Of a DNA stretch of 64,000 bases, positions 2,378 to 26,945 are shown one piece after another; the stretch's first letter is position 1; each line of letters starts with the position of its first letter. The stretch spans positions 1,054,001 to 1,118,000 of the forward strand of contig JAIXUN010000002.1 of assembly GCA_027483535.1 (NCBI GenBank), read 5' to 3'. Source of the stretch: a bacterium (GTDB taxonomy: Bacteria; Armatimonadota; Fimbriimonadia; Fimbriimonadales; Fimbriimonadaceae). The notes under the pieces are model-generated. The model searched no databases, was not told the origin of the DNA, and saw nothing but the letters and a program-made list of their open reading frames with translations. The translations under genes were made by a program, and so were the position numbers.

Positions 2378-2410
2378 CTTGCCTCATACGAGTGCTTCGT
2401 ACCGGGCTGT

Positions 2411-3445
2411 GTGCTGTTCTCGAAGCGGAAGAAGGAATCGATCGAGGAAGTCGTTCGTCGGCACCGGGAAGAAGTCCTTCGAGGCGAGCGCCAAGCCATC
2501 GGCTCAATGCACCACGCGTACAAATCCGCCGCCAAAGAGATCGAACGACGGTTGAGGGAGGTCGAGCGCCTCATGGCCACAGCAACGGCAGAGAACGCCG
2601 AGATCCGCGTGTCGTGGCTCGTCTCCCAGGAGAGGTACCGTGCGCTCCTTGAGCAGGTCTACGTCTCGATGGATGGCTTCTCTCTATCGGCGGAAGAGGT
2701 AGCGAAGAAGCAACAGGCGACGAACGGTAAGCGCGGGACCAATCATGCGCGGGACCTCGCAAAGGTCGAGTTCCAGGGCGCAGGCGTTAGGCTCCCGTCT
2801 TCGTTCAGCCTGCTCAATGAGGAGGCGCTCAAGTCCATGGTGGGCGTCCTTCGAGACGGCTCACCCTTGCGAACGCTGTTCCGCTCAATCGCCCCGAACG
2901 CTGTGAAGGTTGCCCAGGAGGTGATGAAGGCTGGAATCGCGGCTGGTGACAATCCGAGGCTCATCGGGCGGAACATGGCCAAGCAGGTCGAAAAGCTCTC
3001 GCTCGAGCGAGCGGTGACCATCGCCCGAAATGAGTCCCTCAGGGTCTACACCGACGCTCAACAGCAGACCTACATCGCCAATGCCGACGTCGTCTTCCGC
3101 TCCCGAATCGTCTCGGCACTCGACGCTCGGACGTGTCCGATCTGCTGGGCAAGACACGGCACGTTCGTTGAGCACGGAGACCCGTTCTATCGCCACGTTT
3201 GTTGTCGGTGCTCCCTTGCTCCCGTGACGCGTTACACTCCGCAGCGCCTTAGTGGGGAAGAGGTGCTCAGGACGAAGCCTGAGGCGTTCCAAAGGCAGAT
3301 CCTTGGACCCGAGCGGTACGAGCTATGGAAGTCTGGGCGGATCCAACTCGGTGACATCGCCGCCAACTCGCTTCATCCGAAGTGGGGAGCGCAGGTTCGG
3401 CTTCGTCGACTCGACGCGCTCAAGGAAATGGCAAATAGGGACTGA
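2411..3445 (+). CDS. Phage head morphogenesis protein, SPP1 gp7 / Mu gpF family
   Basis: The 344-residue protein has a long helical N-terminal half (residues 1-180, many Glu/Arg) and a C-terminal SPP1 gp7/Mu F-type domain from about 185 to 290. That domain shows the typical ERAVTIARNESLRVYTDA helix and the zinc-finger-like pattern SALDARTCPICWARHG ... HVCCRCSLAPV. In Mu and SPP1 this minor head protein binds the portal and enters the capsid with it. The start GTG at 2411 is chosen as the first codon after the divergent portal start. It ends 3 bases before the convergent gpG/gp10-like gene. The order terminase-portal-gpF is Mu-like, but portal and gpF lie on opposite strands here. Confidence 0.85.
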   Translation: MLFSKRKKESIEEVVRRHREEVLRGERQAIGSMHHAYKSAAKEIERRLREVERLMATATAENAEIRVSWLVSQERYRALLEQVYVSMDGFSLSAEEVAKKQQATNGKRGTNHARDLAKVEFQGAGVRLPSSFSLLNEEALKSMVGVLRDGSPLRTLFRSIAPNAVKVAQEVMKAGIAAGDNPRLIGRNMAKQVEKLSLERAVTIARNESLRVYTDAQQQTYIANADVVFRSRIVSALDARTCPICWARHGTFVEHGDPFYRHVCCRCSLAPVTRYTPQRLSGEEVLRTKPEAFQRQILGPERYELWKSGRIQLGDIAANSLHPKWGAQVRLRRLDALKEMANRD

Positions 3446-3448
3446 GTG

Positions 3449-3928
3449 CTACTGCCCCAAAGCCTCGCTAACGCGCTCCTGCGCCACCTTCGTAGCGATC
3501 TCGCGCACCTTGTCGACGGCTGGTCCAAGGAAGGCAAGGCGCTTCTCTTGCGGTCCTGCATAGGAGGCGGAGATGCCGACCTTTGCCTCATATGGAGTCT
3601 CGGGCGTGTACTCGCTTGGGAACGTCTCAAACTCTCGACCGCCTTTTGTCTTGGCACCCGGTCCGGCGGCGAGCTTGGCGGCTTCAGCCTTAGCTTGCTC
3701 TCGCAGGCTGTCCGATTCCCCACCGACCTGGAAAAAGGCGGAGGCCTTCATCGCGCCAGTGTCAATCTGATTGTTCTTGACGATATTCTCTTGGACCTCA
3801 TCGAGCGCCAAGGTCGCCAAGTCGCGGATCGCCTCGGACATTCCCTTCTGGACGGCGTTCAAGGCCCGATCCCAGGCGGAGAAGTCGACAATGACGTCGT
3901 CGAAGGTTATCTGTTTGGGATCTGCCAC
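3449..3928 (-). CDS. Tail completion / virion morphogenesis protein, HK97 gp10- or Mu gpG-like
   Basis: The 159-residue protein opens with an amphipathic helix (DFSAWDRALNAVQKGMSEAIRDLA) and has the key NQIDTGAMKAS motif, the DTGxLxxS signature of HK97 gp10/Mu gpG-type proteins. The C-terminal half is beta-rich with YAGPQEKRLAFLGPAVDKV, where family members have a YAxxxExG segment. The family acts at the head-tail junction or in tail completion. Placement right after the gpF-like gene matches Mu gpG. It is alone on the minus strand, convergent with the gpF-like gene and divergent from the gene at 4113. Which of the two family roles it plays cannot be decided from sequence. Confidence 0.68.
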   Translation of the reverse strand: MADPKQITFDDVIVDFSAWDRALNAVQKGMSEAIRDLATLALDEVQENIVKNNQIDTGAMKASAFFQVGGESDSLREQAKAEAAKLAAGPGAKTKGGREFETFPSEYTPETPYEAKVGISASYAGPQEKRLAFLGPAVDKVREIATKVAQERVSEALGQ

Positions 3929-4038
3929 TCAGCCTCCTTACGAAAAGAGGTTGAATTAAAGCTCGTATGGAGACGACGACTCTAGGGCAAATGATGCGCA
4001 CTTTTGATGCTGAAAATGCGCGAATGTTGTAATGCTCT

Positions 4039-4056
4039 CCCAGTCGGTTTACTGGG
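4039..4056. promoter_or_regulatory. Inverted repeat in the 184-base divergent region between gpG-like and small basic protein genes
   Basis: CCCAGT (4039-4044) and ACTGGG (4051-4056) form a perfect 6-bp hairpin with a 6-base spacer between the starts of the minus gene (3928) and the plus gene (4113). It may be an operator or a leader hairpin. The surrounding 3929-4112 stretch is richer in A+T than the genes and is one of the few gaps here large enough for two divergent promoters. No -35/-10 pair is clear enough to name. Confidence 0.3.
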
Positions 4057-4112
4057 TCAGGTGCCTCATAATGTATCTGCGGCAAGAGCTCGAATCTTGC
4101 GCAGAAAACACG

Positions 4113-4250
4113 ATGGCAAAAAAGCCCACATCCCAAATCGCCAGGTCTGCAAAGACCGGGCAGTTCATCCCTATGAAGGTCGCGAAGGCGAATCCTTCCA
4201 CGACGGTGGTTGAAACCATCAAGCCTCGCCCTTCCGCCAAGAAGAAGTAA
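4113..4250 (+). CDS. Small basic phage protein with RSAKTGQF...NPSTTVVE motif
   Basis: The 45-residue product starts at ATG 4113 (MAKKPTSQIARSAKTG) and ends with a lysine run. The pattern RxAKTGxF...AxxNPxTTVxExxK occurs in many short orphan proteins of phages and bacteria that I know only as uncharacterised. A longer reading from 4032 is possible but adds a stretch that looks non-coding. It precedes the head protease gene by about 190 bases, a gap in which I see nothing certain. The high positive charge suggests nucleic acid or protein binding, which is only inference. Confidence 0.5.
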   Translation: MAKKPTSQIARSAKTGQFIPMKVAKANPSTTVVETIKPRPSAKKK

Positions 4251-4441
4251 GGCTCTGCCGACCCGGTTGTTCACGCAATCGGGCGGCTCCTAGATAATAG
4301 GCTCCTTTTACGTCGTCAAACTAGCACATAAATGTCTACACTTACGTGATCGTTTCTCGTGGATAATCCGTACCGTTCGCAAGGTCCGTTTAAGGCGCGG
4401 CATGGGGCTGTACGACGGTGCCTCCCGTATCGGGCTTGGTC

Positions 4442-5632
4442 ATGGCGACCACTTTCAAGCCCAAGGGCAAAAGCTTCTCCGATATCGAGAAGCTGGTCCG
4501 CGAAGCCATCAAGACGCAGTTCCCGAACAACTACGTCTGGGTTTCAGAGACCTACCCCGATCAGGTCATCTTCTCGGTTGAGAACCCGCAACCACCCAAC
4601 AACACCGACCAGTACCTCGCGTCGTACTCCATCGCCGCAGACGGGAACGTGACCCTAGGCGAAGCCCAAAAGGTGATGCCGAGGCGCGTTTACGAGATCG
4701 TAACCTTCTCCCTTGATCCGGCGACCTTCGCAGGCAAAGAGATCGTCATCGACGCGAAGCTCTTCGAACTCGGCGACTATCCCGACAAGAACTTCTCGCT
4801 GAACGAAGAGGAAGCGGACTCCGTCACGGTCGCCAGTGCGGCCGGGAAGCGCATCGAGTTCGAGCACATGCCGACCGTGCTCAGTGGTAAGACGGGATCC
4901 ATTGAGAAGGCCTGGCGCGACGGCACCTCTATCTACGGCACCCTGCGGTTCTCGAAGTGGGTCGGCGAGGCGCTCGCGGGCGAGGCACCCAAGCTCTCCC
5001 TATCGTTCAACCCGGTCACCAAGGAGGTTGAGGAGGTCTCGATCGTTCGGAATCCAAGGATCACCGACGCATCGCTACTCGCGGCATTCTCGGGCGAAAC
5101 AGAGCCCAAGTCTGACGAGCGTAAGGGGGGCGTGATGAGCATCTTCGCAAAACTCGCGGAAAAGCTCGGGCTCCAACCGAAAGAGGTTGAGACAGAGCTC
5201 CGGTCCGAATTTGCTGCCGTTAGTGCGGCAGAGTCGGCGGAACTCAAGGCTCGACTGGCGATGGTGGAAGCCGAGAACAAGGCCCTGAAGGAGGGCCAAA
5301 CCGCATCCTTCGCGGCCACCGTCGATACGTCGGCTGCCGCCATCGTCAATCGCTTCAAGTCTGAGGGCAAGATCACCCCTGCCGAGGAAGAGTCTGCAAA
5401 GGCGGCGTTCGCAAGTGCGATGATCGCCGACGGAGGAGTCAAGTTCTCTGCAGACGGCAAGCCCGAAGATGGCACGCAGGTAGCAGCGCTCAAGGCGTTG
5501 TTCGCCTCTCGACCGAACCTCCATCTCACCGAGTCGCAATTCGCTGGCGCAAGCACCATCCCGGGTGCCAAGACCGCTGAGGTGCCGACCATCGACACGG
5601 CCGCGATCTACGCAGCGCGAGGTGCTAAGTAA
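4442..5632 (+). CDS. Phage prohead protease / scaffold protein
   Basis: The 396-residue protein starts best at ATG 4442 (MATTFKPKGK). Residues 1-70 are a separate small domain. Residues about 75-225 look like a prohead protease of the DUF2213/Mu gpI type, with IDAKLFELGDYPDKNF, FEHMPTVLSG (candidate catalytic His) and KLSLSFN followed by EEVSIVRNPRI (candidate Ser on the SLSF strand). Residues about 232-396 are alanine/glutamate-rich and helical, as in scaffolds. Fused protease-scaffolds shape the procapsid and are then degraded. It is followed with TAATG overlap by the decoration gene. An in-frame restart at 5135 may give scaffold alone. The protease assignment rests on pattern and position. 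Confidence 0.72.
   Translation: MATTFKPKGKSFSDIEKLVREAIKTQFPNNYVWVSETYPDQVIFSVENPQPPNNTDQYLASYSIAADGNVTLGEAQKVMPRRVYEIVTFSLDPATFAGKEIVIDAKLFELGDYPDKNFSLNEEEADSVTVASAAGKRIEFEHMPTVLSGKTGSIEKAWRDGTSIYGTLRFSKWVGEALAGEAPKLSLSFNPVTKEVEEVSIVRNPRITDASLLAAFSGETEPKSDERKGGVMSIFAKLAEKLGLQPKEVETELRSEFAAVSAAESAELKARLAMVEAENKALKEGQTASFAATVDTSAAAIVNRFKSEGKITPAEEESAKAAFASAMIADGGVKFSADGKPEDGTQVAALKALFASRPNLHLTESQFAGASTIPGAKTAEVPTIDTAAIYAARGAK
5135..5632 (+). CDS. Possible nested scaffold protein from internal start
   Basis: Within the protease-scaffold frame, ATG 5135 (MSIFAKLAEKLGLQPKEVE) lies exactly at the boundary to the helical scaffold part. It follows a purine-rich stretch AAGGGGGG (5123-5130) that could act as ribosome binding site with a 4-base gap. 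The product would be 165 residues, Ala/Glu-rich, the usual size of a scaffold. Lambda C/Nu3 and Mu I/Z use the same nested design. This is inferred from the sequence and the family, so the isoform is not certain. Confidence 0.42.
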   Translation: MSIFAKLAEKLGLQPKEVETELRSEFAAVSAAESAELKARLAMVEAENKALKEGQTASFAATVDTSAAAIVNRFKSEGKITPAEEESAKAAFASAMIADGGVKFSADGKPEDGTQVAALKALFASRPNLHLTESQFAGASTIPGAKTAEVPTIDTAAIYAARGAK

Positions 5633-6285
5633 TGGCAACCCTTACCGAAGGCCGATGGGCAGGTGAGTTCCTCGTCACCGAGGCGAACGGCTCGCTCTCG
5701 CGGGAGACCATCCTCGTCGCGGCAAACCAGAGCCTTGGTGCGGGTCGGGTGCTTGGCCAGATCACTCTGGGCAACATCACGGGCGCTCCAGGAACGAACA
5801 CTGGCAACGGCACTATTGGAACCCTCTCGCGAACCTCGCGGGCTGTGGCCGGTGTGTATGTCGCTCGGTGCGTGGCCGCCGCAACGAACGGTGGTCGCTT
5901 TGAGGTCATCGACCCGAACGGCAAGAAGATGGCCGACGCGCTTGTGGGCGTCGCCTACTCGAACGGTGAGATCGGCTTCACCATCGCGGACGGTGCGACC
6001 GACTTCGTGGTCGGGGACACCTTCAACATCACCGTTGCCGCCGGATCGGGTCAGTACGTGCCGCTAGCGCCTGCCGCAACCGACGGTTCGTCCATCGCCT
6101 CGGCGATCCTCTTCGCTCCGACGGTCACTCCGGCGGGTGGACCAGGGGAGGCCGTGGTTATCATCCGCGACGCTGAGCTTAACCGCTCCGCGCTCGACTT
6201 CGGATCGCTGGACGCGAACCAACAAACGACCGCCATCGCACAACTTGCGACGCGCTCCATCATCGTCCGAGAGGCGGTGAGCTAA
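5632..6285 (+). CDS. Capsid decoration protein, lambda gpD-like with inserted beta domain
   Basis: The 217-residue protein begins with the typical gpD opening (FLVTEANGSLSRETILVAANQSLGAGRVLGQIT) and ends with the second half of that fold (LFAPTVTPAGGPGEAVVIIRDAELNRSALDF). Between them, about residues 65-130, lies an extra beta-rich insert (GNGTIGTLSRTSRAVAGVY ... VGDTFNITVAAG) that is common in long decoration proteins. In lambda, gpD trimers clamp the expanded capsid. The start overlaps the scaffold stop (TAATG) and the major capsid gene begins 5 bases later, the canonical order. Confidence 0.83.
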   Translation: MATLTEGRWAGEFLVTEANGSLSRETILVAANQSLGAGRVLGQITLGNITGAPGTNTGNGTIGTLSRTSRAVAGVYVARCVAAATNGGRFEVIDPNGKKMADALVGVAYSNGEIGFTIADGATDFVVGDTFNITVAAGSGQYVPLAPAATDGSSIASAILFAPTVTPAGGPGEAVVIIRDAELNRSALDFGSLDANQQTTAIAQLATRSIIVREAVS

Positions 6286-6289
6286 GACC

Positions 6290-7300
6290 ATGTTGAACAA
6301 CATTTTCGACCAACTCAGTGGGGCCTTCACCACGATTTCGCTTACCAGCGCAGTCAATGATGTGCCCCGTGTCCCCACCCGCATTGCTAGCCTCGGTTTG
6401 TTCCAAGAGGAGGGTGTTCCCACCACTTCGGTCAGCGTGGAGAGCCAAGGCGGCATCCTCACCTTGATCCCTGACACGCAGCGGAATGCTCCTCCGAATC
6501 AGTTCAGGAATTCGAAGCGACAAATGCGCGACTTCAAAACGAGTCACTTCCCGCTTGAAGACGTGATTTACGCCACCGAGGTTCAAAACGTCCGGGAGTT
6601 CGGACAAGCAAATGGCCTGCGTACCGTCCAGTCAGTCATCAACGGCAAGCTCGCGCCAATGAGCGCCTCGCACGATGCAACCCTCGAGTTCCAGCGCATT
6701 GGCGCACTTCGAGGGACCATTCTGGATTCCGACAACACCACGGTGATTTACAACCTCTTCACAGAGTTTGGAATCACGCAAGACACGGTCGACTTCGATC
6801 TCGGCACTTCGGGAACGAAGATGAAGGTCAAGGTCCATGCAGTTAAGCGCCTCATTGAAGACACGCTCGGTGCTCTGGCCTACCAGCGGATCCACGTGTT
6901 CTGTGGCAAGAACTGGTTCGACAAGTTCGTCACCCACCCCGATGTGGAGAAGGCTTACGACCGTTACCAAGATGGCTCGTTCCTGCGAGCTGATCAGCGT
7001 ACGGGCTTTGAGTTCGCGGGCATGGTGTTCGAGGAGTATAACGGCAAGGTTGGCAGCATTCCGTTCATTCCAGCGAACGAGTGCATCGCCTTCCCGATTG
7101 GCGTTCCAGGGCTGTTCATTACTCGGTTTGCACCAGCGAACTTTATCGAAACCGTGAACACCATCGGTCTCCCGCGATATGCCAAGAGCGAGCGAGTGGA
7201 CTACGACCGAGGAGTGAAGATTCTCACCGAGTCCAACCCGATCTCCCTCTGCACTCGCCCGAAGGTACTCGTCAAGCTCACCTCGAGCACGGGACTGTAA
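6290..7300 (+). CDS. Major capsid protein, lambda gpE family
   Basis: At 336 residues it has nearly the length of lambda gpE (341). Recognisable are the RVPTRIASLGLFQEEGVPT opening strand, the FKTSHFPLEDVIYATEVQNVREFG segment that in this family forms the E-loop/spine region, the HVFCGKNWFDKFVTHPDV element and the C-terminal FITRFAPANFIETVNTIGLPRY. The protein builds the T-number shell in the HK97 fold. It sits between decoration protein and connector genes, all on the plus strand. Confidence is high from motif and neighbours. Confidence 0.88.
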   Translation: MLNNIFDQLSGAFTTISLTSAVNDVPRVPTRIASLGLFQEEGVPTTSVSVESQGGILTLIPDTQRNAPPNQFRNSKRQMRDFKTSHFPLEDVIYATEVQNVREFGQANGLRTVQSVINGKLAPMSASHDATLEFQRIGALRGTILDSDNTTVIYNLFTEFGITQDTVDFDLGTSGTKMKVKVHAVKRLIEDTLGALAYQRIHVFCGKNWFDKFVTHPDVEKAYDRYQDGSFLRADQRTGFEFAGMVFEEYNGKVGSIPFIPANECIAFPIGVPGLFITRFAPANFIETVNTIGLPRYAKSERVDYDRGVKILTESNPISLCTRPKVLVKLTSSTGL

Positions 7301-7304
7301 GACT

Positions 7305-7661
7305 ATGGATTACAAGACCTACCTTGAGAATAAAGCCGCCCTGGAGGGCGGCTTTGGGCGAGTGCTCGTTGACTACAACGGGCGCACAGCAACCGATGTC
7401 GAGGGTCTCGACTTCATCGCGAAAGCGGAAGGTCTAGACATCGAAGCAGAGGAAGCTAAGGCCAAGGAGGCCGCCGAGAAGGCGGCGGAAGACGCCAAAA
7501 GAGCTGCCAAGGAGCTGGAAGCTAAGGAGGCGGAAGATCGAAAGCGAGCGGCAGACGAAGCCAAGAAGGCGGAAGCTGCCAAGAAGGAACAAGAGGCCGC
7601 TGCTAAGAAGGCGGCAGAGGAAGCTAAGGCCAAGGAGGCCGCCGAGAAGGCAAAGGGGTAG
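7305..7661 (+). CDS. Small Lys/Glu/Ala-rich helical phage protein
   Basis: The 118-residue product has a short N-terminal domain (residues 1-45, YLENKAALEGGFGRVLVDYN) and then about 70 residues made almost only of Ala, Lys and Glu, including repeated KEAAEKA and AKAKEAAEKA units. It should form a long single helix or coiled coil. It starts 4 bases after the capsid gene, so it is co-translated. Some phages have a head assembly protein (like lambda FI) in this place, also Ala/Glu-rich, and an FI-like role in packaging is a reasonable guess but unproven. Confidence 0.6.
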   Translation: MDYKTYLENKAALEGGFGRVLVDYNGRTATDVEGLDFIAKAEGLDIEAEEAKAKEAAEKAAEDAKRAAKELEAKEAEDRKRAADEAKKAEAAKKEQEAAAKKAAEEAKAKEAAEKAKG

Positions 7662-7683
7662 TCCCCACTAGACGCGATCCTTG

Positions 7684-7717
7684 ACGGGGGAGTACTTGGA
7701 AACGAGTGCTCCCCCGT
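7684..7717 (+). terminator. GC-rich hairpin between Lys/Glu-rich gene and connector gene
   Basis: ACGGGGGAG (7684-7692) pairs perfectly with CTCCCCCGT (7709-7717) around a 16-base loop, 23 bases after the stop at 7661. No long T-run follows (TCGTATTTGGG), so it could be a weak terminator or attenuator, or an mRNA-stabilising hairpin between the abundant capsid messages and the connector gene starting at 7733. Confidence 0.4.
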
Positions 7718-7732
7718 TCGTATTTGGGTTCC

Positions 7733-8131
7733 ATGGCTACGACCTACAACCCTGTTCTCAGTCAATCGGATCCACTCCACCGGGCACGGCTCGCACTTGG
7801 AGACACGGGCTTCTTGAAAGACGCAGAAGGAACGCCCAAGTACTTGCTCCTTGATGAGGAGATCACCGCCAAAATCACCGCTCTCGGATATGCCGAAGGG
7901 GTAGCGCAATGCGCAGAGGCGTGTGTTGCACGTGTTGCTCAGGAGCCAGACGAATACGAGGACGAAGTAGGAATGAAGGTCAAATGGAACTCCCGCGTTG
8001 CCGAGTGGCGCGACCTTGCCCGAAGACTGCGAGCGGGCGTCGTCTCCACCGAGTCGAGCATAAACCGCGGCACGGCCGGGATTGGCGCGAACATGATCAA
8101 CCCGGACGTCTCGAAGCTCGGGTTAGGTTGA
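7733..8131 (+). CDS. Head-tail connector protein (adaptor, gp6/gp15-like)
   Basis: From ATG 7733 the product is 132 residues and mostly helical: DPLHRARLALGDTGFLKDAEGTPKYLLLDEEITAKI is the typical start of head-tail connector/adaptor proteins, with the xLLxDEEI helix. It then continues with YAEGVAQCAEACVARVAQ and a WRDLARRLRA helix. Such proteins form the first ring below the portal. The earlier frame start at 7706 adds residues that look unrelated. Its 3' end overlaps the convergent tail terminator gene by 9 bases. Confidence 0.7.
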   Translation: MATTYNPVLSQSDPLHRARLALGDTGFLKDAEGTPKYLLLDEEITAKITALGYAEGVAQCAEACVARVAQEPDEYEDEVGMKVKWNSRVAEWRDLARRLRAGVVSTESSINRGTAGIGANMINPDVSKLGLG

Positions 8132-8527
8132 AGTCACGACCAGACGATAAGTTCCGCCGGAGAAGAACCGCTCCTCTTTCGAGCTAAGGGTGTTCGAGCC
8201 GAACTGGGGTGCCGATCTCGTGCAAGACACCACGCGCTCGGCACCGTACGTGCCTGTGGTGTTCTCGAGGGATGCGTGGATCTCGTTCGCGATCGTGGAG
8301 ACTTCGGCGAGGTTTTTCGAGAACGCCTGTACGAGCAAGAGAGGGTCGGCATGAGTGATCTCGCCGTCCGTTAAACCGGATTGGATACCAGCCGAGGCGA
8401 CGAAAACAAGGATGCCCTTATCGGCTTCATCGGGCGCTCGCTGGGTGTAGATCGGCCATCCGTCGAGGTTGGTGTTTGGACCGAGGATCGTATTCACGTG
8501 CCGCACGGCCGTAATGGCCTCGATCAC
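8123..8527 (-). CDS. Tail terminator-like protein
   Basis: The 134-residue protein shows the pattern of tail terminator proteins of siphoviruses: an N-terminal helix (MIEAITAVRHVNTIL), a short strand pair with WPIYTQRAPDEADKGILVFV, a central VQAFSKNLAEVSTIANEIHASLE helix, and a C-terminal beta strand (GGTYRLVVTST). In the family it caps the tail tube where it joins the head. Position between head closure and tail tube genes is as expected, but the gene is on the minus strand with its partner at 8524-8898 (ATGA-type 4-base overlap). The family match is from fold pattern and place only. Confidence 0.62.
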   Translation of the reverse strand: MIEAITAVRHVNTILGPNTNLDGWPIYTQRAPDEADKGILVFVASAGIQSGLTDGEITHADPLLLVQAFSKNLAEVSTIANEIHASLENTTGTYGAERVVSCTRSAPQFGSNTLSSKEERFFSGGTYRLVVTST

Positions 8528-8898
8528 GCTGTCACCTCAGCAACGATGGCCGTTTTCACCAGTTCGTTTTCGGTCGGGGAGTCTCGAATTCCGATCACCT
8601 CGAAGACACGAGACCTCGCCGGAATCTCTAAGCGGTCGGAGCGGATCACGTCCTGGTGAGCAGGGAAGGCAACGTGGTACATAGCCCTCGTCTCGTTCTT
8701 GAAACGCTCTTCCACCTCGTCTGCGGTCAAAGGCTCGAAGCGGGCAAGAAGCCAACCGGGCTGGGGTACGTATTCGGCTTCGTCACCGAACTCACCTCTG
8801 ACGAGCTGCTTGCGCAGGACTCGGCACCGACCGTTCACGAGGGTTCGTGAGATCGTCTCCCGGATAGCGGCACGGGTCGAATCGCTAAGAAGGCTCAT
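8524..8898 (-). CDS. Head closure / head-tail joining protein
   Basis: The 124-residue product is beta-rich: CRVLRKQLVRGEFGDEAEYVPQPGWLLARFEPLT, then DVIRSDRLEIPARSRVFEVIGI. This is the layout of head-tail joining proteins (SPP1 gp16/HK97 gp7-type stoppers), in which a short beta barrel ends with a xxDRLxxxxRxFEVxGI stretch. It would plug the connector after DNA packaging. It is translationally coupled to the tail terminator gene downstream (8527/8524) and diverges from the tail tube gene with 33 bases between starts. Together the pair forms an inverted cassette in canonical order position. Confidence 0.62.
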   Translation of the reverse strand: MSLLSDSTRAAIRETISRTLVNGRCRVLRKQLVRGEFGDEAEYVPQPGWLLARFEPLTADEVEERFKNETRAMYHVAFPAHQDVIRSDRLEIPARSRVFEVIGIRDSPTENELVKTAIVAEVTA

Positions 8899-11616: not shown

Positions 11617-12219
11617 TTAGAAGTGTAGCCGAAAGTAGCTACAAACGCGACATTCCCCATTCATTTGTTGCGGAGCACTAAGGGGTACCTTCTTGCATGA
11701 TGGGCATGAGATCTGAAGGTGATGGAGTGCCGATCGATAACCGAAGACTTTTTCAGGGTGGGAAATCTCTTGAGAGTGCTCGTCTTGCGCTAGGCTGTTT
11801 TCAAGGTCCCAGCATTCGCTCATCTTTTTTCGTAGCTCTTCAGGGGATAAGGTATTTCGAAATGCATGCAATTTTTGGGACTCATTAAATATTCGAAGCT
11901 CCTGAATTTGCAGAGACATTGCTTTGGATAGCTTGTCGTCCCACTTTGCAAAGACTCCCCAAAGCGACAGTAAGAACTGAATAATTAGGATGATCGCGCT
12001 TAAGGTTATCACCGAACCAGTAGCCCACTGTTTGTCGGCAAGGACCAAGGAGCCCATCAGAGAGGGAACAACAAATCCCGTGAAACTGACCACTCTCAAT
12101 CGCCGAGTATAGACATTCACTCGTCTCGCAAACAGAATGTGAGTCGAATATGTTCTGATCCGTAGGTCATTCAGAAGTTTTAGGTCTTCGGTTGATTGCT
12201 CAAAGTTCGCGTCGCCCAC
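11617..12219 (-). CDS. SLATT-like membrane protein with C-terminal zinc-ribbon (CxxC pair)
   Basis: The 200-residue protein has an N-terminal charged helix (EQSTEDLKLLNDLRIRTYSTHILFARRVNVYTRRLRVVS), two adjacent membrane segments near residues 44-65 and 69-93, a charged helical region with conserved-looking WDLENSLAQDEHS, and a C-terminal CPSC-x14-CRVC zinc-ribbon-like motif. It resembles mobilome proteins of the SLATT group that carry a C-terminal CxxC pair. SLATT domains are predicted pore-forming effectors in conflict systems. It is AT-rich, on the minus strand between the chaperone and tape measure genes, and probably a cargo gene for defence or superinfection exclusion. The exact family spacing (x14 here) should be checked. 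Confidence 0.55.
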   Translation of the reverse strand: MGDANFEQSTEDLKLLNDLRIRTYSTHILFARRVNVYTRRLRVVSFTGFVVPSLMGSLVLADKQWATGSVITLSAIILIIQFLLSLWGVFAKWDDKLSKAMSLQIQELRIFNESQKLHAFRNTLSPEELRKKMSECWDLENSLAQDEHSQEISHPEKVFGYRSALHHLQISCPSCKKVPLSAPQQMNGECRVCSYFRLHF

Positions 12220-12262: not shown

Positions 12263-15200
12263 GTGGCAGACCTCGCCGAACTCTATCTCGTCCTCAAGGC
12301 CAAGGCCGACCCGCTCCTGAAGTCGATCAACGACATGAAGCGGGATGTCCCCAAGAAGATGGCCGAAGCTGGGAAATCGGGAGCGGTCGCGCTCGAAGCC
12401 GAGGCGGAGAAGGCTGGGACGGACGCTGGGAAGGCCGTTGGTGACGGTCTCAAGAAGGGAGCCAAGAAGGGCATGGACGATGCCCGGAAAGAAGTCGCTA
12501 AAGCGAAACCGACTTTACTCGCCGAGGTTTCCACTGTGGCGGGCTCTACAGGTCGATCCCTTTCGCTTGCCGTGAGTGCTCCTATCTCCGTCCTTGCCCG
12601 CGCGGCGATCAAAGAGGCGATGGGTGCCGAAACCGCCCTGTCGCAACTAAAGGGTGCTGCCGACGCCACCGAGGACCAGATCAAGCGGGCGACGATCAAC
12701 ACGCGCTTGCTAGTTGCCGACCTTCGCGACTTCGGACTGTCAGAAACGCAGGTCACCCAATCGACCACCGAACTCGCGAAAGCGGGTCTCACTCTCGACC
12801 AGGCGTTGAAGTCGACGAGGGCTTCTCTCATTCTTGCCTCTGCCGGTCAAATGGAAACGGCGGAGGCCGCACAAGTCACCGCAAATGCTCTCAACGCCTT
12901 CAGCCTCAAGGCAGAGGAAGCGGGGCGTGTCGTAGACATCATTGCAGGAACCGCCTCGGAGGCGTCCGGTGGGGTCAAGGAACTCACCGATGCGTTCAAG
13001 ATGGGTTCCGCAGTTGCCGCCCAGGCGGGCGTAGATATCAGCGATTTCAGTGCCGCTCTTGGTCTCATGGCCAATGCGGGCATGATGGGTTCTGACGCCG
13101 GCACGTCGCTCAAGAGTTCACTGCTTGCCCTGATCGGTCCTAGCAAGGAGGCAACGAAATACATGAAGGCTCTCGGTATCGAGGTCTTTACGTCCGAGGG
13201 GCGCATGAAGGCGCTCCCGGAAATCGTCCGACAGTTTGAGAAGGGCCTGGAGGGGCTGACCCAGAGACAGCGTTTGAAGGCGCTTACCGAGATCTTCGGG
13301 ACGGACGGAATTCGCGCGTTCAACATCCTGCTGAAGAACGGTTCTGATGGTCTATCTGACTTCGCAGACAAGGTTGATAAGTCTGGGAAGGCACAAAAGC
13401 TTGCGAACTCGATGATTGGCCCCACTCAGAAGCTTTTCAATCGCATGACGTCGGAGATCAAGGAAACCACCAAGGCACTTGGTGATGACCTTCTTCCGAC
13501 AGTTGCGAAGCTCGTCACCGAAGCTGCTGGAGCGGTTCGTTCGTTCCGGTCAACTTGGAACGGGTTCTCGCCAGAGATGAAAGAGTTCGCGCTAAAGACT
13601 CTCGCCTTTGGTGCAACCCTTGGTCCATTGGCAATCGGCCTCGGTTCCGTTGCTGGAGGCGTGAAGTCGATCATTGACCTCCGTGCCAGCTTCGTAGCGG
13701 CACAGGTGGCAAAACAAGCTGCCCTGGCGGGAACTACGACGGCTGCCGTTGCAACCAACGGTGCGCTCACTGGTCTGCTCGGGTCCATCAATCTATTGCG
13801 TTCGTCCTCGCTCATTCCGATCGTTTTTACAGCGGTCATTGGGTGGGAAATTGGAAACCAAGTCAAAGGTTGGATGGATAAACAAGCGAAGGGAGCCGGA
13901 TTTGATAATGCGGGCGAGATGTTCAACGACCCGTTCGGCGTTCTAGGTGAAGGTCGTTTTGGACGATTCTCTGAGCGGGAAAGGGTTCGCAAGGACGCTG
14001 AGCAAGCCGCACCCGGATTCATGGAGCGTTGGAATCGGGCACGAAGCCAAGGCCTGATTGGTAGCTTGATGAGGCAGGCTGGATTTAAAGGCTCTCAAGT
14101 GGTAATTCAGGGCAAGTCATCAGGGCAGCAAACTAACAAGATAGATCCCGAAGGCAACCTCCCGAAGACCGGCCGCGGTGGCGGTAGCACCAAGCGTGAT
14201 CCAGTTTCGGACCTCATAGACACGGGTCTGTCCACACTCAATCGACAGGAGTCCGAGAAGCGCATCAAGGCGTTCATGGATGCGGGCAATTGGACCGCTG
14301 CCGCTTTCGAACAGGCGGGAGGGAAGTTCTCGTCCCAGTGGGGACGCGTAACGGCCGCCAAGCGCAAAATCTTCGAGAAGCTAGGCGAGGGACTCAAGGC
14401 AGACTTCGTTGCCGAGCAGAAGAGCAAAGCCGCCGCCGCGAAGCAGATGGAGGCCGACCTCATGCGCGAGCTCCGTGAGGTGAACAACCCGGCGTCCATG
14501 GTGGACAAACTCTCTCGCGAGAAGTTCGGGAAGGACTTCGAGAATCTCACCGATCCGAAGAACCGTTCGCTCATCTCTCAGCTTGCCGGTGAGTACGACA
14601 AGAAGGACACGGCCGAGAAGAACGCAGAACGCGCGGACAGACTAGCTCGCGAGGAAGAGGCCCGGCTCGCAAGGCGTAATCGGTGGATCCTCGGGCGCAA
14701 CGACTCGGTGAAGAGTCTGGTTGATTCACTCGATGCCCAACTGCGGAAGGAACGGGAGCTCTCTACGTTTGAGCAGGTGGTAGCCGAAGCGAAAGAGAAG
14801 GGCATCCGGCTGAACTTCTTCGAGATCGCGGTTCTAAAGCAACGTGCTGCACAGGTCGACGCGCTCAAAAAATCGGAGAAGGAACGAGTAGACGCAGAGA
14901 AGGCTTCCGAGCTTCGAGCCGAGCAAATCCGTGATGCCAACGAGCAGTACGCCGATGCACTCGAAGAGATCGCCACGCAGGCCGCCCAGCTCGGCCGTTC
15001 TGGCGCACTAGCGGAGTTCCGCCTAAAAAGACTCGCCGTCACCTTTGGCTACGGTGCCACGGAGGCAGAGCGCCTTTCCACGGGCATGGACCGCGCCATG
15101 CGTGTGATGAAGGAGCAACTCCTTCTCCAAGACGTCAAGGTGTGGAGAGACGCCTTCGAGCGGGTAGCCGACGCCATCGTCGAGCCTATCCGAGATGCGC

Positions 15201-15694
15201 TCGGAGAACTCGTCACGGTGGACATGCCCGGCTTCTTCCGCTCACTCAACACGCTCGTCGGCAGGGCGCTCACGGAGTTCACAAACCAGATACTCGAGGC
15301 GCAGATTCGCCTTCAACTGAACCGCGCGATCGATTGGGGTGTTGGTCAGCTTTTCGGCGGTCAACTCGCTGGACTGACCGCTTCCGGCGGCGGTGGTGCG
15401 TTCATGCCCGCAGGGGTCTCGCTTAGCCCCGACGGCTCGCAGTCGATGCTAACGGGCTTTGCCAACGGAGGCGGCGTCGGAGCGGGCAGACCGATCGTTG
15501 TCGGCGAGCGTGGACCGGAAATCTTCGTGCCGTCACGGTCGGGCAACGTCGTGCCGAATCACCGGGCGGGTGTCGGCGGCGGGGGCGTTTACATCACGAT
15601 CAACGTTCAGGGTTCTGCGACGCGGGAGACTGCTCAGCAGATTGCGATGGAGGTTGCACGGGCGGTGGAATCGGCTCGGCGGAGTTTGGGGTGA
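12263..15694 (+). CDS. Tail tape measure protein
   Basis: The 1143-residue protein starts at GTG 12263. It opens with an Ala/Lys-rich helical region, then a TP901-type tape measure core at about 95-420 (FGLSETQVTQSTTELAKAGL, AQVTANALNAFSLKAEEAG, DFSAALGLMANAGMMGSDAG). Hydrophobic segments lie near 450-475 and 515-530, followed by long charged coiled coils. The C-terminus (LTGFANGGGVGAGRPIVVGERGPEIFVPSRSGNVVPN ... VYITINVQG) is the usual signature end of tape measures. The protein sets tail length: by the lambda rule of about 0.15 nm per residue, a tail of very roughly 170 nm is implied. It is the longest gene of the phage and is followed by the inserted metalloprotease module. Confidence 0.92.
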   Translation: MADLAELYLVLKAKADPLLKSINDMKRDVPKKMAEAGKSGAVALEAEAEKAGTDAGKAVGDGLKKGAKKGMDDARKEVAKAKPTLLAEVSTVAGSTGRSLSLAVSAPISVLARAAIKEAMGAETALSQLKGAADATEDQIKRATINTRLLVADLRDFGLSETQVTQSTTELAKAGLTLDQALKSTRASLILASAGQMETAEAAQVTANALNAFSLKAEEAGRVVDIIAGTASEASGGVKELTDAFKMGSAVAAQAGVDISDFSAALGLMANAGMMGSDAGTSLKSSLLALIGPSKEATKYMKALGIEVFTSEGRMKALPEIVRQFEKGLEGLTQRQRLKALTEIFGTDGIRAFNILLKNGSDGLSDFADKVDKSGKAQKLANSMIGPTQKLFNRMTSEIKETTKALGDDLLPTVAKLVTEAAGAVRSFRSTWNGFSPEMKEFALKTLAFGATLGPLAIGLGSVAGGVKSIIDLRASFVAAQVAKQAALAGTTTAAVATNGALTGLLGSINLLRSSSLIPIVFTAVIGWEIGNQVKGWMDKQAKGAGFDNAGEMFNDPFGVLGEGRFGRFSERERVRKDAEQAAPGFMERWNRARSQGLIGSLMRQAGFKGSQVVIQGKSSGQQTNKIDPEGNLPKTGRGGGSTKRDPVSDLIDTGLSTLNRQESEKRIKAFMDAGNWTAAAFEQAGGKFSSQWGRVTAAKRKIFEKLGEGLKADFVAEQKSKAAAAKQMEADLMRELREVNNPASMVDKLSREKFGKDFENLTDPKNRSLISQLAGEYDKKDTAEKNAERADRLAREEEARLARRNRWILGRNDSVKSLVDSLDAQLRKERELSTFEQVVAEAKEKGIRLNFFEIAVLKQRAAQVDALKKSEKERVDAEKASELRAEQIRDANEQYADALEEIATQAAQLGRSGALAEFRLKRLAVTFGYGATEAERLSTGMDRAMRVMKEQLLLQDVKVWRDAFERVADAIVEPIRDALGELVTVDMPGFFRSLNTLVGRALTEFTNQILEAQIRLQLNRAIDWGVGQLFGGQLAGLTASGGGGAFMPAGVSLSPDGSQSMLTGFANGGGVGAGRPIVVGERGPEIFVPSRSGNVVPNHRAGVGGGGVYITINVQGSATRETAQQIAMEVARAVESARRSLG

Positions 15695-15773
15695 ACGCGA
15701 GGACTTTTACGGAAAAATGTAAATCGTTCAGTCTGTGTGAATATTTTTCGACCAATTCTGCGTCAAAATATAC

Positions 15774-16382
15774 ATGGTGATCTCACTAGAATCTCTCGTT
15801 CAAAGCCGTTCACGTGAGTTGCAGGTGATTCTGCAATGCGCGGATGACGCCCATCGTGTAGCCTTGGCTCGCCACCCAAAACTCGCTAGTGCGTTCGTTG
15901 GACCGTCCGAGCGCACCGATTGGCTGGATTTCGCACTGAAGGAACTTGGGGATCGCGGTGATTTCGTTCGGATTACGAAAGAGAACGAGAGGAGAAACTG
16001 GATTGAGCTTCACGATGGCGAATCGTGGCACAAGTTCGCTCCCTACTTTGCCCAATTGGAGAGTAATGACGCTTACACGATTCACGCGAAAGGCCGAGAG
16101 AAGGATGTCGTGCAACCGCTGCAGTTCGTATTACCAACGCTGGTTGACCACTCTTCGTCCACCGATCAGGGCGAATTGTACGGCTATGCGCTCCGAGTTT
16201 TTCGGCAAGAGGATAACGAGGAACTACCGGAGATTCATTTTGTGTTCGGAACAAAGCCGTCGAGAATGGATTTGCACAATGACGTGATTCGATGGGCGCA
16301 GCGAGCAATTGTTTCGAAGAAGGAGAAGCCGCAGAGTCTTGTTGAAGCCTACGAAGTGGAATTTAAACCAGAGCTGGCGTAA
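15774..16382 (+). CDS. Unrecognised protein paired with ImmA/IrrE-type protease
   Basis: The 202-residue product (MVISLESLVQSRSRELQVIL...) is mixed helix/strand without membrane segments or a known motif that I can name. Its stop TAA is directly followed by the GTG of the metalloprotease gene (16382/16383), so the two are co-translated. An AT-rich 79-base stretch before it likely holds a promoter of its own. The gene pair lies between the tape measure and tail tip genes, where no virion gene is expected. By position, it could be a toxin, a protease substrate or a cofactor of the HTH-protease protein. It is not a classical ParE/HigB toxin by sequence that I can see. Confidence 0.55.
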   Translation: MVISLESLVQSRSRELQVILQCADDAHRVALARHPKLASAFVGPSERTDWLDFALKELGDRGDFVRITKENERRNWIELHDGESWHKFAPYFAQLESNDAYTIHAKGREKDVVQPLQFVLPTLVDHSSSTDQGELYGYALRVFRQEDNEELPEIHFVFGTKPSRMDLHNDVIRWAQRAIVSKKEKPQSLVEAYEVEFKPELA

Positions 16383-17462
16383 GTGAACAAAATACCGATT
16401 CATCCCGTTCGGCTTGCAAGATATTATTCGGGGCTAACCCAATCCGAATTGGCGGCAAGAATTCGTCGCCCACAGTCCCAAATCGCGAGGATCGAAAAGT
16501 GGGAGTTGGACTGGACCATGCACTCAAGTGACTTGAGCAGAGCTACAGGTCTTCCCCTTGCGTTCTTTTCTCCTGAAAGGGAATGGTTGGAGCCCGATAC
16601 TGCGCTGTCGTTTCGGAAACCCAGCAGGTGCCCTGCGGCGGTGCGAGATAAAGCGATGTACTACGCCGTTGTCGGACACTCAAGCCTGGAGCCGATGGTT
16701 GCGAGTTTGATAAGGTATCCGAAGATTGCCGTACCATCAAGTCCAAGTCCAGAAGCCAACGGCTTAGCAGAGGCCCGAGAAATTGGGGCGGTGATTGCGA
16801 AAAACCTTCGCATATCTTGGGGTTTGGGATGGGGGCCAATAAGCGACGTCATTAAACTTGTCGAGTCGAAAGGCGTTCGAGTCTTTTTCGTCAATGAATA
16901 CAGTGAGTTTCTGGATGGATTTGCTTGTTGGACGGCTGGGATTCCTTATATTTTTCTAAATCAAAATGTCACTGATCCCGCAAGGCTACGGCTAGATGTT
17001 GCCCATGAACTTGGGCACCTTGTCATGCATCGAGATATCGCATTTGATGCTCGGACTGACATTATCGAGGCGATGGCTTTCGGTTTCGCAATCGAGTTTC
17101 TAGCACCTTGGCAAACACTAGAAGCAGAGGTTCCAAGTATTCCCGACCTACCGTTGCTTGGAAAGCTACGTAAACGTTGGAAGGTCTCAATGCAATCGAT
17201 TGTTCGCCATATGCATGCAAATAACGCAATCACCGATGCGGCATACGCGAACGCTTTCAGAAAGTTCTCATTTCTCGGTTATCGACGGGGGCCAGAACCT
17301 GTGTGGGTAGACCCTGATGAAAGCGTCATTCACAAGTATTTTGTAGCTGCCGCATCAGACAAACAGATTGATATTCCAAAACTGGCGGAGTCGTATGGGA
17401 TTTCCGACAGTGTTTTGGGGGCAATGATCCCAGCGACCCTAGGGAAACTCCAGCTTCTATGA
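16383..17462 (+). CDS. XRE-type HTH protein with ImmA/IrrE metallopeptidase domain
   Basis: The 359-residue protein begins with an HTH of Cro/XRE type (residues about 5-60: RLARYYSGLTQSELAARIRRPQSQIARIEKWE) and carries a zincin domain with DVAHELGHLVMH, the HExxH motif of the ImmA/IrrE (COG2856) family, at about 205-216. A likely third ligand lies in IIEAMAFGFAIEFLAP. Such proteins cleave repressors or act as antitoxins/regulators (ImmA of ICEBs1, IrrE of Deinococcus). The family is confident. The target is unknown and may be the phage repressor or the protein encoded just upstream. The pair is AT-richer than its neighbours, suggesting transfer as a unit. Confidence 0.82.
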   Translation: MNKIPIHPVRLARYYSGLTQSELAARIRRPQSQIARIEKWELDWTMHSSDLSRATGLPLAFFSPEREWLEPDTALSFRKPSRCPAAVRDKAMYYAVVGHSSLEPMVASLIRYPKIAVPSSPSPEANGLAEAREIGAVIAKNLRISWGLGWGPISDVIKLVESKGVRVFFVNEYSEFLDGFACWTAGIPYIFLNQNVTDPARLRLDVAHELGHLVMHRDIAFDARTDIIEAMAFGFAIEFLAPWQTLEAEVPSIPDLPLLGKLRKRWKVSMQSIVRHMHANNAITDAAYANAFRKFSFLGYRRGPEPVWVDPDESVIHKYFVAAASDKQIDIPKLAESYGISDSVLGAMIPATLGKLQLL

Positions 17463-17490: not shown

Positions 17491-18144
17491 GTGTCCTTCC
17501 ACGACGTCCGGTTTCCTGACGACATCGCTCGCGGTCTAACAGTCCGTCGGTCGTTCAACACGCTTGTCCTTGCGAGTGAGTCGGGCTTCGAACAGCGGAT
17601 CGGGCAATGGGCGCGTTCTCGCGTCGAGTTCGAACTGTCCCTGCAGGTTTACAACGAAACGACGATTGAGCGCATCCGCGCCTTCTTCGAAGCGAGGCAA
17701 GGGAGGCTATACGGCTTCAGGTGCCGAGACTGGAGCGACTTCTATGTCGGCTACACGAAGCAACTAGGGTCGTCCGCATGGCCGCTCGGAACCCCTCACG
17801 TCTTCGCCACGGGCAACGGAACGCAGACCGCATTCCAGCTTCAGCGGCGGTACGAGTCCGGTTCGACCATCGTCAACCGCAAGGTCTCAAGGCCGCTGCC
17901 GACGTTCGTTCCGGCTCCGTTTCGCCTTTGGGTCGGCGGGGTCGAACAAACTAGCGGATGGACCGTGGACTCTTCGACTGGCATAGTCACCTTCACTAGT
18001 GCGCCTGCTGATGGTGCTGAGATCGCATGGGCGGGGCTGTTCGACCTTCCGGTCCGGTTCGACACAGACTCACTCTCGCTAAACCTAGAAGCGCTAAATA
18101 TCGGAGCGACGTCGGGTCTTCGGATCCTGGAGATTAGGGACTAG
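17491..18144 (+). CDS. Tail tip protein, DUF2460 family (GTA gp12-like)
   Basis: The 217-residue protein has the DUF2460 signature: FHDVRFPDDIARGLTVRRSFNT at the start, ARQGRLYGFRCRDWSDFYVG in the middle, a typical GTQTAFQLQRRY segment, and a WTVDSSTGIVTFTSAPADGAEIAWAGLFDLPVRFDTD end. In the Rhodobacter gene transfer agent the homologue is the distal tail protein at the tube end. The start GTG 17491 fits the family. It is followed in that system by DUF2163 and NlpC/P60 genes, here with two minus-strand genes in between. Confidence 0.88.
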   Translation: MSFHDVRFPDDIARGLTVRRSFNTLVLASESGFEQRIGQWARSRVEFELSLQVYNETTIERIRAFFEARQGRLYGFRCRDWSDFYVGYTKQLGSSAWPLGTPHVFATGNGTQTAFQLQRRYESGSTIVNRKVSRPLPTFVPAPFRLWVGGVEQTSGWTVDSSTGIVTFTSAPADGAEIAWAGLFDLPVRFDTDSLSLNLEALNIGATSGLRILEIRD

Positions 18145-18499
18145 GCTGTTCTCCTTTGTTCTCCTTCGACTTGGAGGAATGGAAACTGTATATTCGGGCT
18201 ACTCCGGACCCAACGAAGATGGATGAAAAGATTGCAGTAACAAGCTCAACTTTCACAAGTTTTGGGTGATTTGTATTCAACCAATGAATTACAACACAAG
18301 CAGCCACCAAGATCAGAACCCAAAAGAAGAGTCCAATCAAGGCAGCAACGGCTTGCACTGAGAGGCTGCTCCAAGAGGTCTTTCTTCCCTCCTCGATTAT
18401 GCGAATTTCGTGCTCGTTCGGGGAATCTTCACTCAAGACGAAGTCAATTTGGAGCAAATCGATCAGAGTAACCTGGTGAAGAGGATCATTGCGGAGCAA
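18134..18499 (-). CDS. Small membrane protein, probably starting further upstream
   Basis: From ATG 18499 the product has 121 residues with two membrane segments near residues 47-70 and 84-102 and a charged, lysine-rich end. The same frame stays open and strongly coding-like upstream (DPNREKRRKRQEERAKALEHVRAKIELL). It has no ATG but has a CTG at 18586 preceded by AGGAGG on the minus strand, which would give 150 residues. This overlaps the end of the gene at 18576-18839. It ends inside the last codons of the DUF2460 gene (11-base overlap, opposite strand). Function unknown. By position it is a cargo gene. Confidence 0.55.
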   Translation of the reverse strand: MLRNDPLHQVTLIDLLQIDFVLSEDSPNEHEIRIIEEGRKTSWSSLSVQAVAALIGLFFWVLILVAACVVIHWLNTNHPKLVKVELVTAIFSSIFVGSGVARIYSFHSSKSKENKGEQPSP

Positions 18500-18575: not shown

Positions 18576-18839
18576 TCAGTCGCCAGAGTTTGCCTGGACC
18601 TCCTGAGAGCGGTGTGATCGACTCAGGATGAACGGCAATTCTCTCGCAAGCATGTAGACTTCACGAGGCTCGGCTAAGCCTTGGCGGAGAATTCCTAAAA
18701 GGCTCTTGAGGATGTTGTTAACTTCCTCTCGCGTCTTGTCTGTCCCAATCGAATTCGTCGCTATGAAGGTTTGGAACTCTACGAGTTGCTTCTCAACATC
18801 TGATGATGTAAGTCCCTTTTCTTTTTCCTTCACTAGCAT
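18576..18839 (-). CDS. Unrecognised small helical protein, upstream partner of the membrane protein
   Basis: The 87-residue product (MLVKEKEKGLTSSDVEKQLVEFQTFIATNSIGTDK...) is predicted helical and soluble. I do not recognise a family. It overlaps the coding-like N-terminal extension of the gene at 18134-18499 in another frame, so the two are either coupled by overlapping translation or joined by a frameshift. Both are AT-rich and on the minus strand between DUF2460 and DUF2163 genes, interrupting an otherwise tightly conserved tail tip operon. Confidence 0.5.
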   Translation of the reverse strand: MLVKEKEKGLTSSDVEKQLVEFQTFIATNSIGTDKTREEVNNILKSLLGILRQGLAEPREVYMLARELPFILSRSHRSQEVQANSGD

Positions 18840-25243: not shown

Positions 25244-25465
25244 ATGAACTTCGAACAAGCCAAGACGAATCTGATCGCCGCCCGCAAAGCCTGGTACGCG
25301 GGCGATGGTTCGGAAGCCGCCATGAATCTCGCCGCTGAGGCCGCCGCCAAGGCGTACAACGATCGAGCGCGCGAGATCGCCCGAAAGATGGGCATGAAGC
25401 CTCGCCTCACCAACGCGCGAACCATCATGCGGCAGATCGACCAAGCTGATCGCTTCCGCCGTTGA
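25244..25465 (+). CDS. Small helical phage protein
   Basis: ATG 25244 opens 73 residues (MNFEQAKTNLIAARKAWYAG...) that form helices rich in Ala and Arg (EAAMNLAAEAAAKAYNDRAREIARKMGMKPRL), with a basic end. Upstream 25140-25243 is AT-rich and may hold its promoter. Its last 41 bases overlap the end of the convergent methylase gene. No family is recognised. A DNA-binding or structural accessory role is possible. Confidence 0.5.
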   Translation: MNFEQAKTNLIAARKAWYAGDGSEAAMNLAAEAAAKAYNDRAREIARKMGMKPRLTNARTIMRQIDQADRFRR

Positions 25466-26372
25466 TCCACTCCACGGCTTTCCTCGGATCGCCCTTCACG
25501 AAGACCAAGACGTTCTGATGCACCCGCACTAGCTTGCGGGTGTTCATGTTCAGGTTCGCCCGAATGGCCGCCGTGCCGACGTTGTTGAGCAAGACGACGT
25601 CGTTGTAGAGCCCAAGCCCAGCAGCCTCGAATGCCCTGATGGTGTCGGCCACAAACCCACGATAGATCCCGGTCTTCTTGTTCCGGACCTCCGAAACCAC
25701 AAATGCGGCAAACCGGTTGTCAGAGAGTTTCGCGCAAGCATCGCCGATAATCCTCGAGTAGGTGGCGAGGAACCGCTCGTACTCCATGGTGCTGATGTCG
25801 CGAGGATCATCGCTGTAAACCTCAAGGTCGGCGTAGGGCGGGCAAGAGAACACGAAGTCGAAGGAGCCCGGCAGGGAAGAAACGAGTTCGCTCGAGTCGC
25901 CAACTATCCAGGAGGGCTGGACTTCGACGGGAATGCGATCGATTTGGGCGCGGTTCGCGAGGACCTGTTCTTCCCTGAGCTCGATGCCCGTGTAGTGCAT
26001 CCCGAGCGAACCAGCGACTATGCCTCGAACGCTTCCGCCCGCGAAAGGATCAAGGACCGAAGCGCCTGGCCGAGAGAACCAACGGAGAAGTACTTCGCAA
26101 AGGACAGGATCAAAGGTCGAGGTCGACTTCTTGTTGGTGTGCTTCGCGGTTTTGAATCGGGTCTCATCGAGCTTGCGGTACGTAAGCTCTTCACCACGGC
26201 CAACTTCGGATTCGATACCGAGAGCGAGCCACTTTGCTTTGCGGGTCGACCAGTATCCTTGCTTCGTGTCAAAGACCGAGAAGGGTGGGATTATCCACTT
26301 CTCCGCAAGGGTCGGTGCGGGTTTGGGGAATGAGAACTGGAGGTCCAGCGGTAGAGTTTCGGTGTTCTTCAT
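25425..26372 (-). CDS. Phage DNA methyltransferase (N6-adenine or N4-cytosine type)
   Basis: The 315-residue enzyme has SAM-binding motif I in VLDPFAGGSVRGIVAGSLG (about residues 110-128), the next acidic strand YTGIELREEQ, and catalytic motif IV FSCPPYADLE (about 178-187), an S-x-P-P-Y variant of the D/N/S-PPY block of amino-methyltransferases. The order motif I before IV fits the gamma- or alpha-type. No restriction nuclease gene is next to it, so it is an orphan methylase, as often carried by phages to evade restriction. It is on the minus strand and is the last phage gene before the tRNA fragment. Confidence 0.82.
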   Translation of the reverse strand: MKNTETLPLDLQFSFPKPAPTLAEKWIIPPFSVFDTKQGYWSTRKAKWLALGIESEVGRGEELTYRKLDETRFKTAKHTNKKSTSTFDPVLCEVLLRWFSRPGASVLDPFAGGSVRGIVAGSLGMHYTGIELREEQVLANRAQIDRIPVEVQPSWIVGDSSELVSSLPGSFDFVFSCPPYADLEVYSDDPRDISTMEYERFLATYSRIIGDACAKLSDNRFAAFVVSEVRNKKTGIYRGFVADTIRAFEAAGLGLYNDVVLLNNVGTAAIRANLNMNTRKLVRVHQNVLVFVKGDPRKAVEWINGGSDQLGRSAA

Positions 26373-26561: not shown

Positions 26562-26611
26562 CCTGTTTCGTAAACAGCAGGCCACCGGTTCAAATCCGGT
26601 CATCGGCTCCA
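26562..26611 (+). pseudogene. 3' half of tRNA-Thr(CGT): probable attachment site at prophage right end
   Basis: CCTGT TTCGTAA ACAGC (26562-26578) is an anticodon arm with anticodon CGT (threonine), its first pair lost. ACCGG TTCAAAT CCGGT (26584-26600) is the T arm, CATCGGC (26601-26607) the 3' acceptor strand, then T and an encoded CCA. The 5' half (GCCGATG, D arm) is absent: the sequence before 26562 is unrelated. A tRNA starting at the anticodon arm is what an integrase crossing over in the anticodon loop leaves at one end of an element. The intact tRNA-Thr should lie at the other end, left of the window. No integrase gene is next to it. Confidence 0.72.
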
Positions 26612-26945
26612 TTTCAACTCGCTAATCTGCGCAATCCCAGGTGGATTTGTCGATCTGATCGACCAAGGTGACAAGCCTGTATCTGGATCGAGCCCCGAAA
26701 ATGGAGCTTGCACCTAAGGTCCGGCGCTATCCTGGAACTGTTTCCATTTCTTGGAAGGCTTACGGCAGTCCGAACTTCTGAGTCTTTGCCTCAGGTGAGA
26801 TTGAGCTAGCGGTACCGACGCAAAATTCAAAAAAGCCAGGAGAAATTATGTTAAATTTCTTGCGCTGGTCTTCTTGGTGCTGAAAGTTTTGTACCAACGT
26901 GATAGCATGTCGACAGCCCCACGGTCACAAGAGGGATGAGACGAA
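26612..26945. other. Intergenic stretch between tRNA fragment and amidase gene
   Basis: I see no gene in these 334 bases. It holds one clear palindrome, AGAAATT-ATGTTA-AATTTCT at 26841-26860, within a larger partly paired context (CCAGG before, CTGG after). This is 85 bases upstream of the amidase start and could be an operator or attenuator. A potential purine-rich ribosome binding site (AGAGGGATGAGA) precedes the amidase ATG. Confidence 0.4.

Follow-up and report, generated by a model that had tools for sequence, protein, structure and literature searches.

A pair of adjacent genes, here called ORF1 and ORF2, located inside the tail operon of a 54-kb prophage probably constitutes a highly divergent toxin–antitoxin module of the RosmerTA (RmrT–RmrA) type, carried by the prophage as cargo. 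Judged from sequence comparison, the pair most likely acts as a RosmerTA-type defence or addiction module and not as a lysogeny switch. The window, that is, the whole stretch of 64,000 nucleotides that was analysed, corresponds to C1:1054001-1118000 of a 3.77-Mb genome, and its left 26.6 kb are the right half of the prophage. The element is integrated in a tRNA-Thr gene with both att sites in place: attR (26563-26614) is a 52-bp perfect repeat of the 3′ end of the tRNA, the other copy lies at C1:1026445-1026496, and ARAGORN predicted a tRNA-Thr(CGT) at the left copy only. Between the two repeats are found a tyrosine integrase, an HTH repressor-like gene, replication genes, a terminase, a Mu-type portal, a major capsid protein E and the tail genes.

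ORF1 (15774-16382, plus strand) starts with ATG and encodes 202 amino acids, and ORF2 (16383-17462, plus strand) starts with GTG and encodes 359. To their left lies the tape measure gene (12263-15694, plus strand; PhageMin_Tail, E = 6e-45) and to their right a distal tail gene of the DUF2460/Rcc01695-like type (17491-18144, plus strand; DUF2460, E = 2e-57), both outside the module. The open reading frame calls and the Pfam matches of these flanks thus bear out the earlier proposal, made from the letters of the DNA alone, of a two-gene module inserted between tape measure and tail tip genes. The co-translation that it proposed agrees with the sequence TAAGTG, where the TAA stop of ORF1 directly abuts the GTG start of ORF2. 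In 500 first-order Markov simulations of the stretch, the longest open frame had a median of 140 codons, a 99th percentile of 230 and a maximum of 282, so that the 359 codons of ORF2 exceed every simulated frame. The 202 codons of ORF1 are unexceptional on their own, and it is the existence of homologues in the same two-gene order that backs this gene. The upstream region had been described as AT-rich, and indeed the 79-bp spacer (15695-15773), a putative promoter and operator of the pair, has a GC content of 36.7% compared with about 59% in the tail genes. It contains an imperfect inverted repeat, TGAATATTTT (15738-15747) and AAAATATACA (15765-15774), beside the start codon of ORF1. A palindrome is also located just upstream of one of the two relatives of ORF1 described below (locus L006, 2622-2654); none was found upstream of the other (L005), and a scan of the spacer for sigma-70 consensus promoters gave no site.

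Several other features of the right half of the prophage deserve a record. The head genes (965-8898) run on mixed strands, which is unusual for a late operon, with the Mu-type portal gene (965-2377) and the ORFs 3449-3928, 8123-8527 and 8524-8898 on the minus strand and the Mu F-like and capsid genes on the plus strand. Between the terminase and portal genes, and running against the terminase gene, 204-944 (minus strand) encodes a predicted membrane protein with a GC3 of 0.51 and no Pfam match. Another cargo gene of the tail region is located just before the tape measure gene (11617-12219, minus strand; GC3 0.50) and encodes a ‘mobilome CxxCx(11)CxxC’ protein (TIGR04402, E = 2.5e-36). Two small low-GC ORFs on the minus strand (18134-18499 and 18576-18839), which have no confident family match, lie between the DUF2460 gene and the baseplate hub gene and mark a second site of cargo beside DUF2460. 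An N6/N4 DNA methyltransferase gene (25425-26372, minus strand) adjoins attR at the right prophage end.

By homology, ORF2 is a member of the RmrA family, in which an XRE-type HTH is fused to an ImmA/IrrE (M78) peptidase. Fourteen RmrA models of PADLOC match it, the best with E = 1e-60 over residues 9-345. The XRE-zincin assignment made from the HELGH motif proved correct: the motif occupies residues 208-212, the protein matches Pfam M78 (E = 1.8e-14), and the downstream Glu229 is intact, with HExxH and this glutamate conserved in the seven RmrA-like proteins compared. HTH models remained below threshold but were placed N-terminally. Among other libraries, ORF2 matches PHROG 2439, a transcriptional regulator (E = 4.5e-53), and the match to PDB 7t5t is weak. 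The link to DNA damage that was drawn from the IrrE resemblance is a generic one. ORF2 shares the M78 peptidase with CapH/CapP of CBASS, but the PADLOC capP model scores far worse (1.4e-10) than the RmrA models and no gene of CBASS was recognised nearby. As in RipAB (spr1630/spr1629) of Streptococcus pneumoniae, a Rosmer-family XRE-ImmA antitoxin would be encoded in an operon with a toxin, which in the case of ORF1 is putative. In pneumococcus, RipB (Spr1629) antagonises the RipA toxin, which acts on DnaN (PMC12795458). ORF2 matches the NCBIfam model antitox_spr1629 (2.6e-17, 63 bits) far under its curated cut-off of 335 bits.

The identity of ORF1 is less immediate. No family match was obtained in the Pfam, NCBIfam, PADLOC or PHROG libraries; the PADLOC RmrT models gave nothing at E<=1 for ORF1 itself, and even at E<=5 they missed both of its relatives. 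These relatives, 31-32% identical to ORF1, were found among 291 genomes of the phylum, both in the same family as the host, and a scan of GTDB contigs returned the same two. Plasmid, phage and viral-contig collections yielded no homologue at the sensitivity used. In the phylum, RmrA-like genes are paired with PIN-like or PemK/MazF-like proteins (both named by eye) or with upstream proteins of about 200-220 amino acids, a part of them recognised by the RmrT models of PADLOC. In phages, plasmids and viral contigs, an ORF of 180-270 amino acids lies immediately upstream of the RmrA-like gene at 76 of the 87 loci; most of those tested match PADLOC RmrT, and most cluster into one family, to which PADLOC gives the name RmrT. 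A single-sequence HMM search of ORF1 against more than 80 RmrT candidates was not significant. Comparison of a profile of the three ORF1-family sequences with the 68-member family that contains RmrT gave a hhalign score of 27.8 over 156 co-linear columns with a probability of 22%, and none of 150 column-shuffle controls was as good (best shuffle, 22.2 over 19 columns). The merged alignment displays a common K-G in the middle of the protein together with a Glu that is near-invariant, a Pro and an Arg (a K-G / E...P...R pattern). When RmrT rows were added to the alignment, the mean pLDDT of the AlphaFold model of ORF1 rose from 66 (models 42-66) to 78 (75-78), a rise that stands beside no control with unrelated sequences. 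On the basis of the profile comparison, these motifs, the size, the gene order and the better folding with RmrT rows, we mark ORF1 as a putative, highly divergent RmrT toxin. In its model, a beta sheet follows two helices at the N-terminus. Searches against the PDB by sequence and fold, and against viral folds, returned only noise, and because no solved structure matches the fold, no toxic activity can be named for ORF1.

This partnership could also be read without toxicity, with ORF2 as a regulator of neighbouring genes and ORF1 as its substrate or sensor. Such a reading would agree with the PHROG label of the ORF2 family and with a study in which certain RosmerTA homologues failed to protect against most of the phages tried (PMC12322248). 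We consider it unlikely, as the variety of partners in the phylum, with PIN, PemK/MazF-like and RmrT-like proteins beside the RmrA-like genes, is the pattern expected of an antitoxin, and homologous RosmerTA toxins are toxic on expression (PMC10440598, PMC12795458).

Each of the three members of the ORF1 family known here lies directly upstream of an RmrA-like gene. The search for homologous pairs that had been proposed returned two further ORF1–RmrA pairs in the same bacterial family, in which the ORF1 relative ends 0-12 nt upstream of a gene whose product is 50-55% identical to ORF2. In L005, the pair sits between RNase J/UvrA-like and MetG/DnaJ-like genes and, in L006, it adjoins a C5 DNA methyltransferase gene (all names by eye); neither locus has any visible phage context. 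It follows from this distribution that the ORF1–ORF2 pair is, as far as comparison of loci can tell, an autonomous module and that ORF1 is not a tail protein.

The same distribution bears on the lysogeny switch that the sequence-only reading had offered beside a toxin–antitoxin or defence role. According to this explanation, ORF2 would act as an antirepressor of the ImmA type and cut the repressor of the phage upon damage, with ORF1 as an accessory regulator. In ICEBs1, the repressor ImmR is cut by ImmA (cited in PMC10440598), the peptidase motif of ORF2 is intact, and the search for a repressor to the left of the window did find an HTH repressor-like gene (L128:13907-14650). However, this candidate is about 33 kb away from the pair, in the integrase-proximal part of the prophage that holds the replication genes, and there is nothing to connect the two. 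Moreover, ORF2 carries its own fused HTH, as RmrA proteins do, the homologous pairs occur where no phage context is visible, and the pair is absent from most related phages. ICEBs1 likewise couples an M78 peptidase to an HTH, but there the repressor and the peptidase are separate proteins that control excision, whereas ORF2 fuses both and ORF1 has no match to an HTH family. A lysogeny or induction switch is thus improbable, slightly more so than a regulator with a harmless partner, and the toxin–antitoxin or defence alternative is the one that homology supports, with an RmrA-like ORF2, a divergent RmrT-like ORF1 and a pair that travels autonomously. That ORF1 could be a tail or tail-assembly protein beside a stray regulator, as its place next to the tape measure and distal tail genes, with one on either side, might suggest and as the earlier account had named as its own refutation, is hardly credible, given that it matches no tail family or PHROG, that both relatives lie away from tail genes and that related tail modules lack it.

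The ORF1–ORF2 pair is cargo of the prophage, because its GC3 (0.57 in ORF1 and 0.475 in ORF2) is lower than that of the adjacent tail genes (0.67-0.72) and because the tape measure and DUF2460 genes directly abut in most relatives. They abut or overlap in six of the nine DUF2460 loci of the phylum, and they abut in about 45 of the 70 viral contigs measured. Cargo (L142:4070-9400) also occupies the junction between a C-terminal fragment of the tape measure and DUF2460 in a second prophage, which belongs to a different genome of this family (L142, G071:C8:26001-42000). It consists of an ImmA gene with a single domain, a gene resembling a transposase and a further RmrA gene (E = 2.7e-29; degenerate peptidase motif HDLFH) that overlaps an upstream ORF of 240 amino acids. 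This 240-residue partner showed no link to ORF1 or RmrT by profile and is RmrT-like by position only. In a third genome (L143, G008:C14), an AntA/KilAC antirepressor gene (L143:5867-6637) is located upstream of DUF2460 in a related prophage; that locus is rearranged, so that the tape measure gene has the reverse orientation to the hub and DUF2460 genes. A viral contig (L188) with an apparent ImmA at the same junction turned out to encode only an XRE protein beside a chemoreceptor-like gene and was left out of the count. The tape measure/DUF2460 junction looks like a recurrent cargo position, with at least two RmrA-containing pairs. A broader proposal can be put forward tentatively, as a possibility rather than an expectation: ORF1 may found an unrecognised toxin family with an undescribed fold and target that is neutralised by RmrA, and in this Armatimonadota phage lineage the junction between tape measure and distal tail genes, where two unrelated pairs with an RmrA gene lie, may be a repeated landing site for ImmA-based toxin–antitoxin cargo that serves in defence.

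The closest parallel is the phage-borne RosmerTA, including RmrTA of the Gordonia phage Kita, which proved toxic in E. coli and gave protection from two coliphages, although the text and the figure legend of the study disagree on which two (PMC10440598). Further phage-borne RosmerTA-type systems were found here in Gordonia phage Eyes, phage Tritos and an Acinetobacter phage. The ORF1–ORF2 pair shares with them an XRE-ImmA gene directly downstream of a partner of about 200 amino acids and its location in a phage, and differs in that ORF1 is matched by no RmrT model. Following these parallels, the XRE domain of ORF2 would bind the AT-rich upstream region and repress the operon, and ORF2 would also neutralise the putative toxin. 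A superinfecting phage or another stress could disturb ORF2, or the peptidase of ORF2 could act on its target, and in either case ORF1 would be freed. Free ORF1 would then stop the growth of the infected cell, so that the population of lysogens and its resident prophage would be protected. The toxin–antitoxin pair would also make the loss of the prophage costly.

Should this working hold, the putative toxin would be of a different kind from that of phage Kita, for which membrane segments are predicted and which depolarises membranes (PMC10440598). ORF1 lacks a hydrophobic segment (19-residue hydropathy maximum of 0.56, no predicted membrane segment) and would be a soluble protein. The finding also suggests that RosmerTA-type systems are under-counted, because searches that require both genes would miss a pair whose antitoxin is recognised but whose ORF1, like the partners of several relatives, matches no RmrT model. 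In conclusion, the ORF1–ORF2 pair points to a site for cargo within the tail operon and would extend phage-borne RosmerTA-type defence to prophages of the Armatimonadota.
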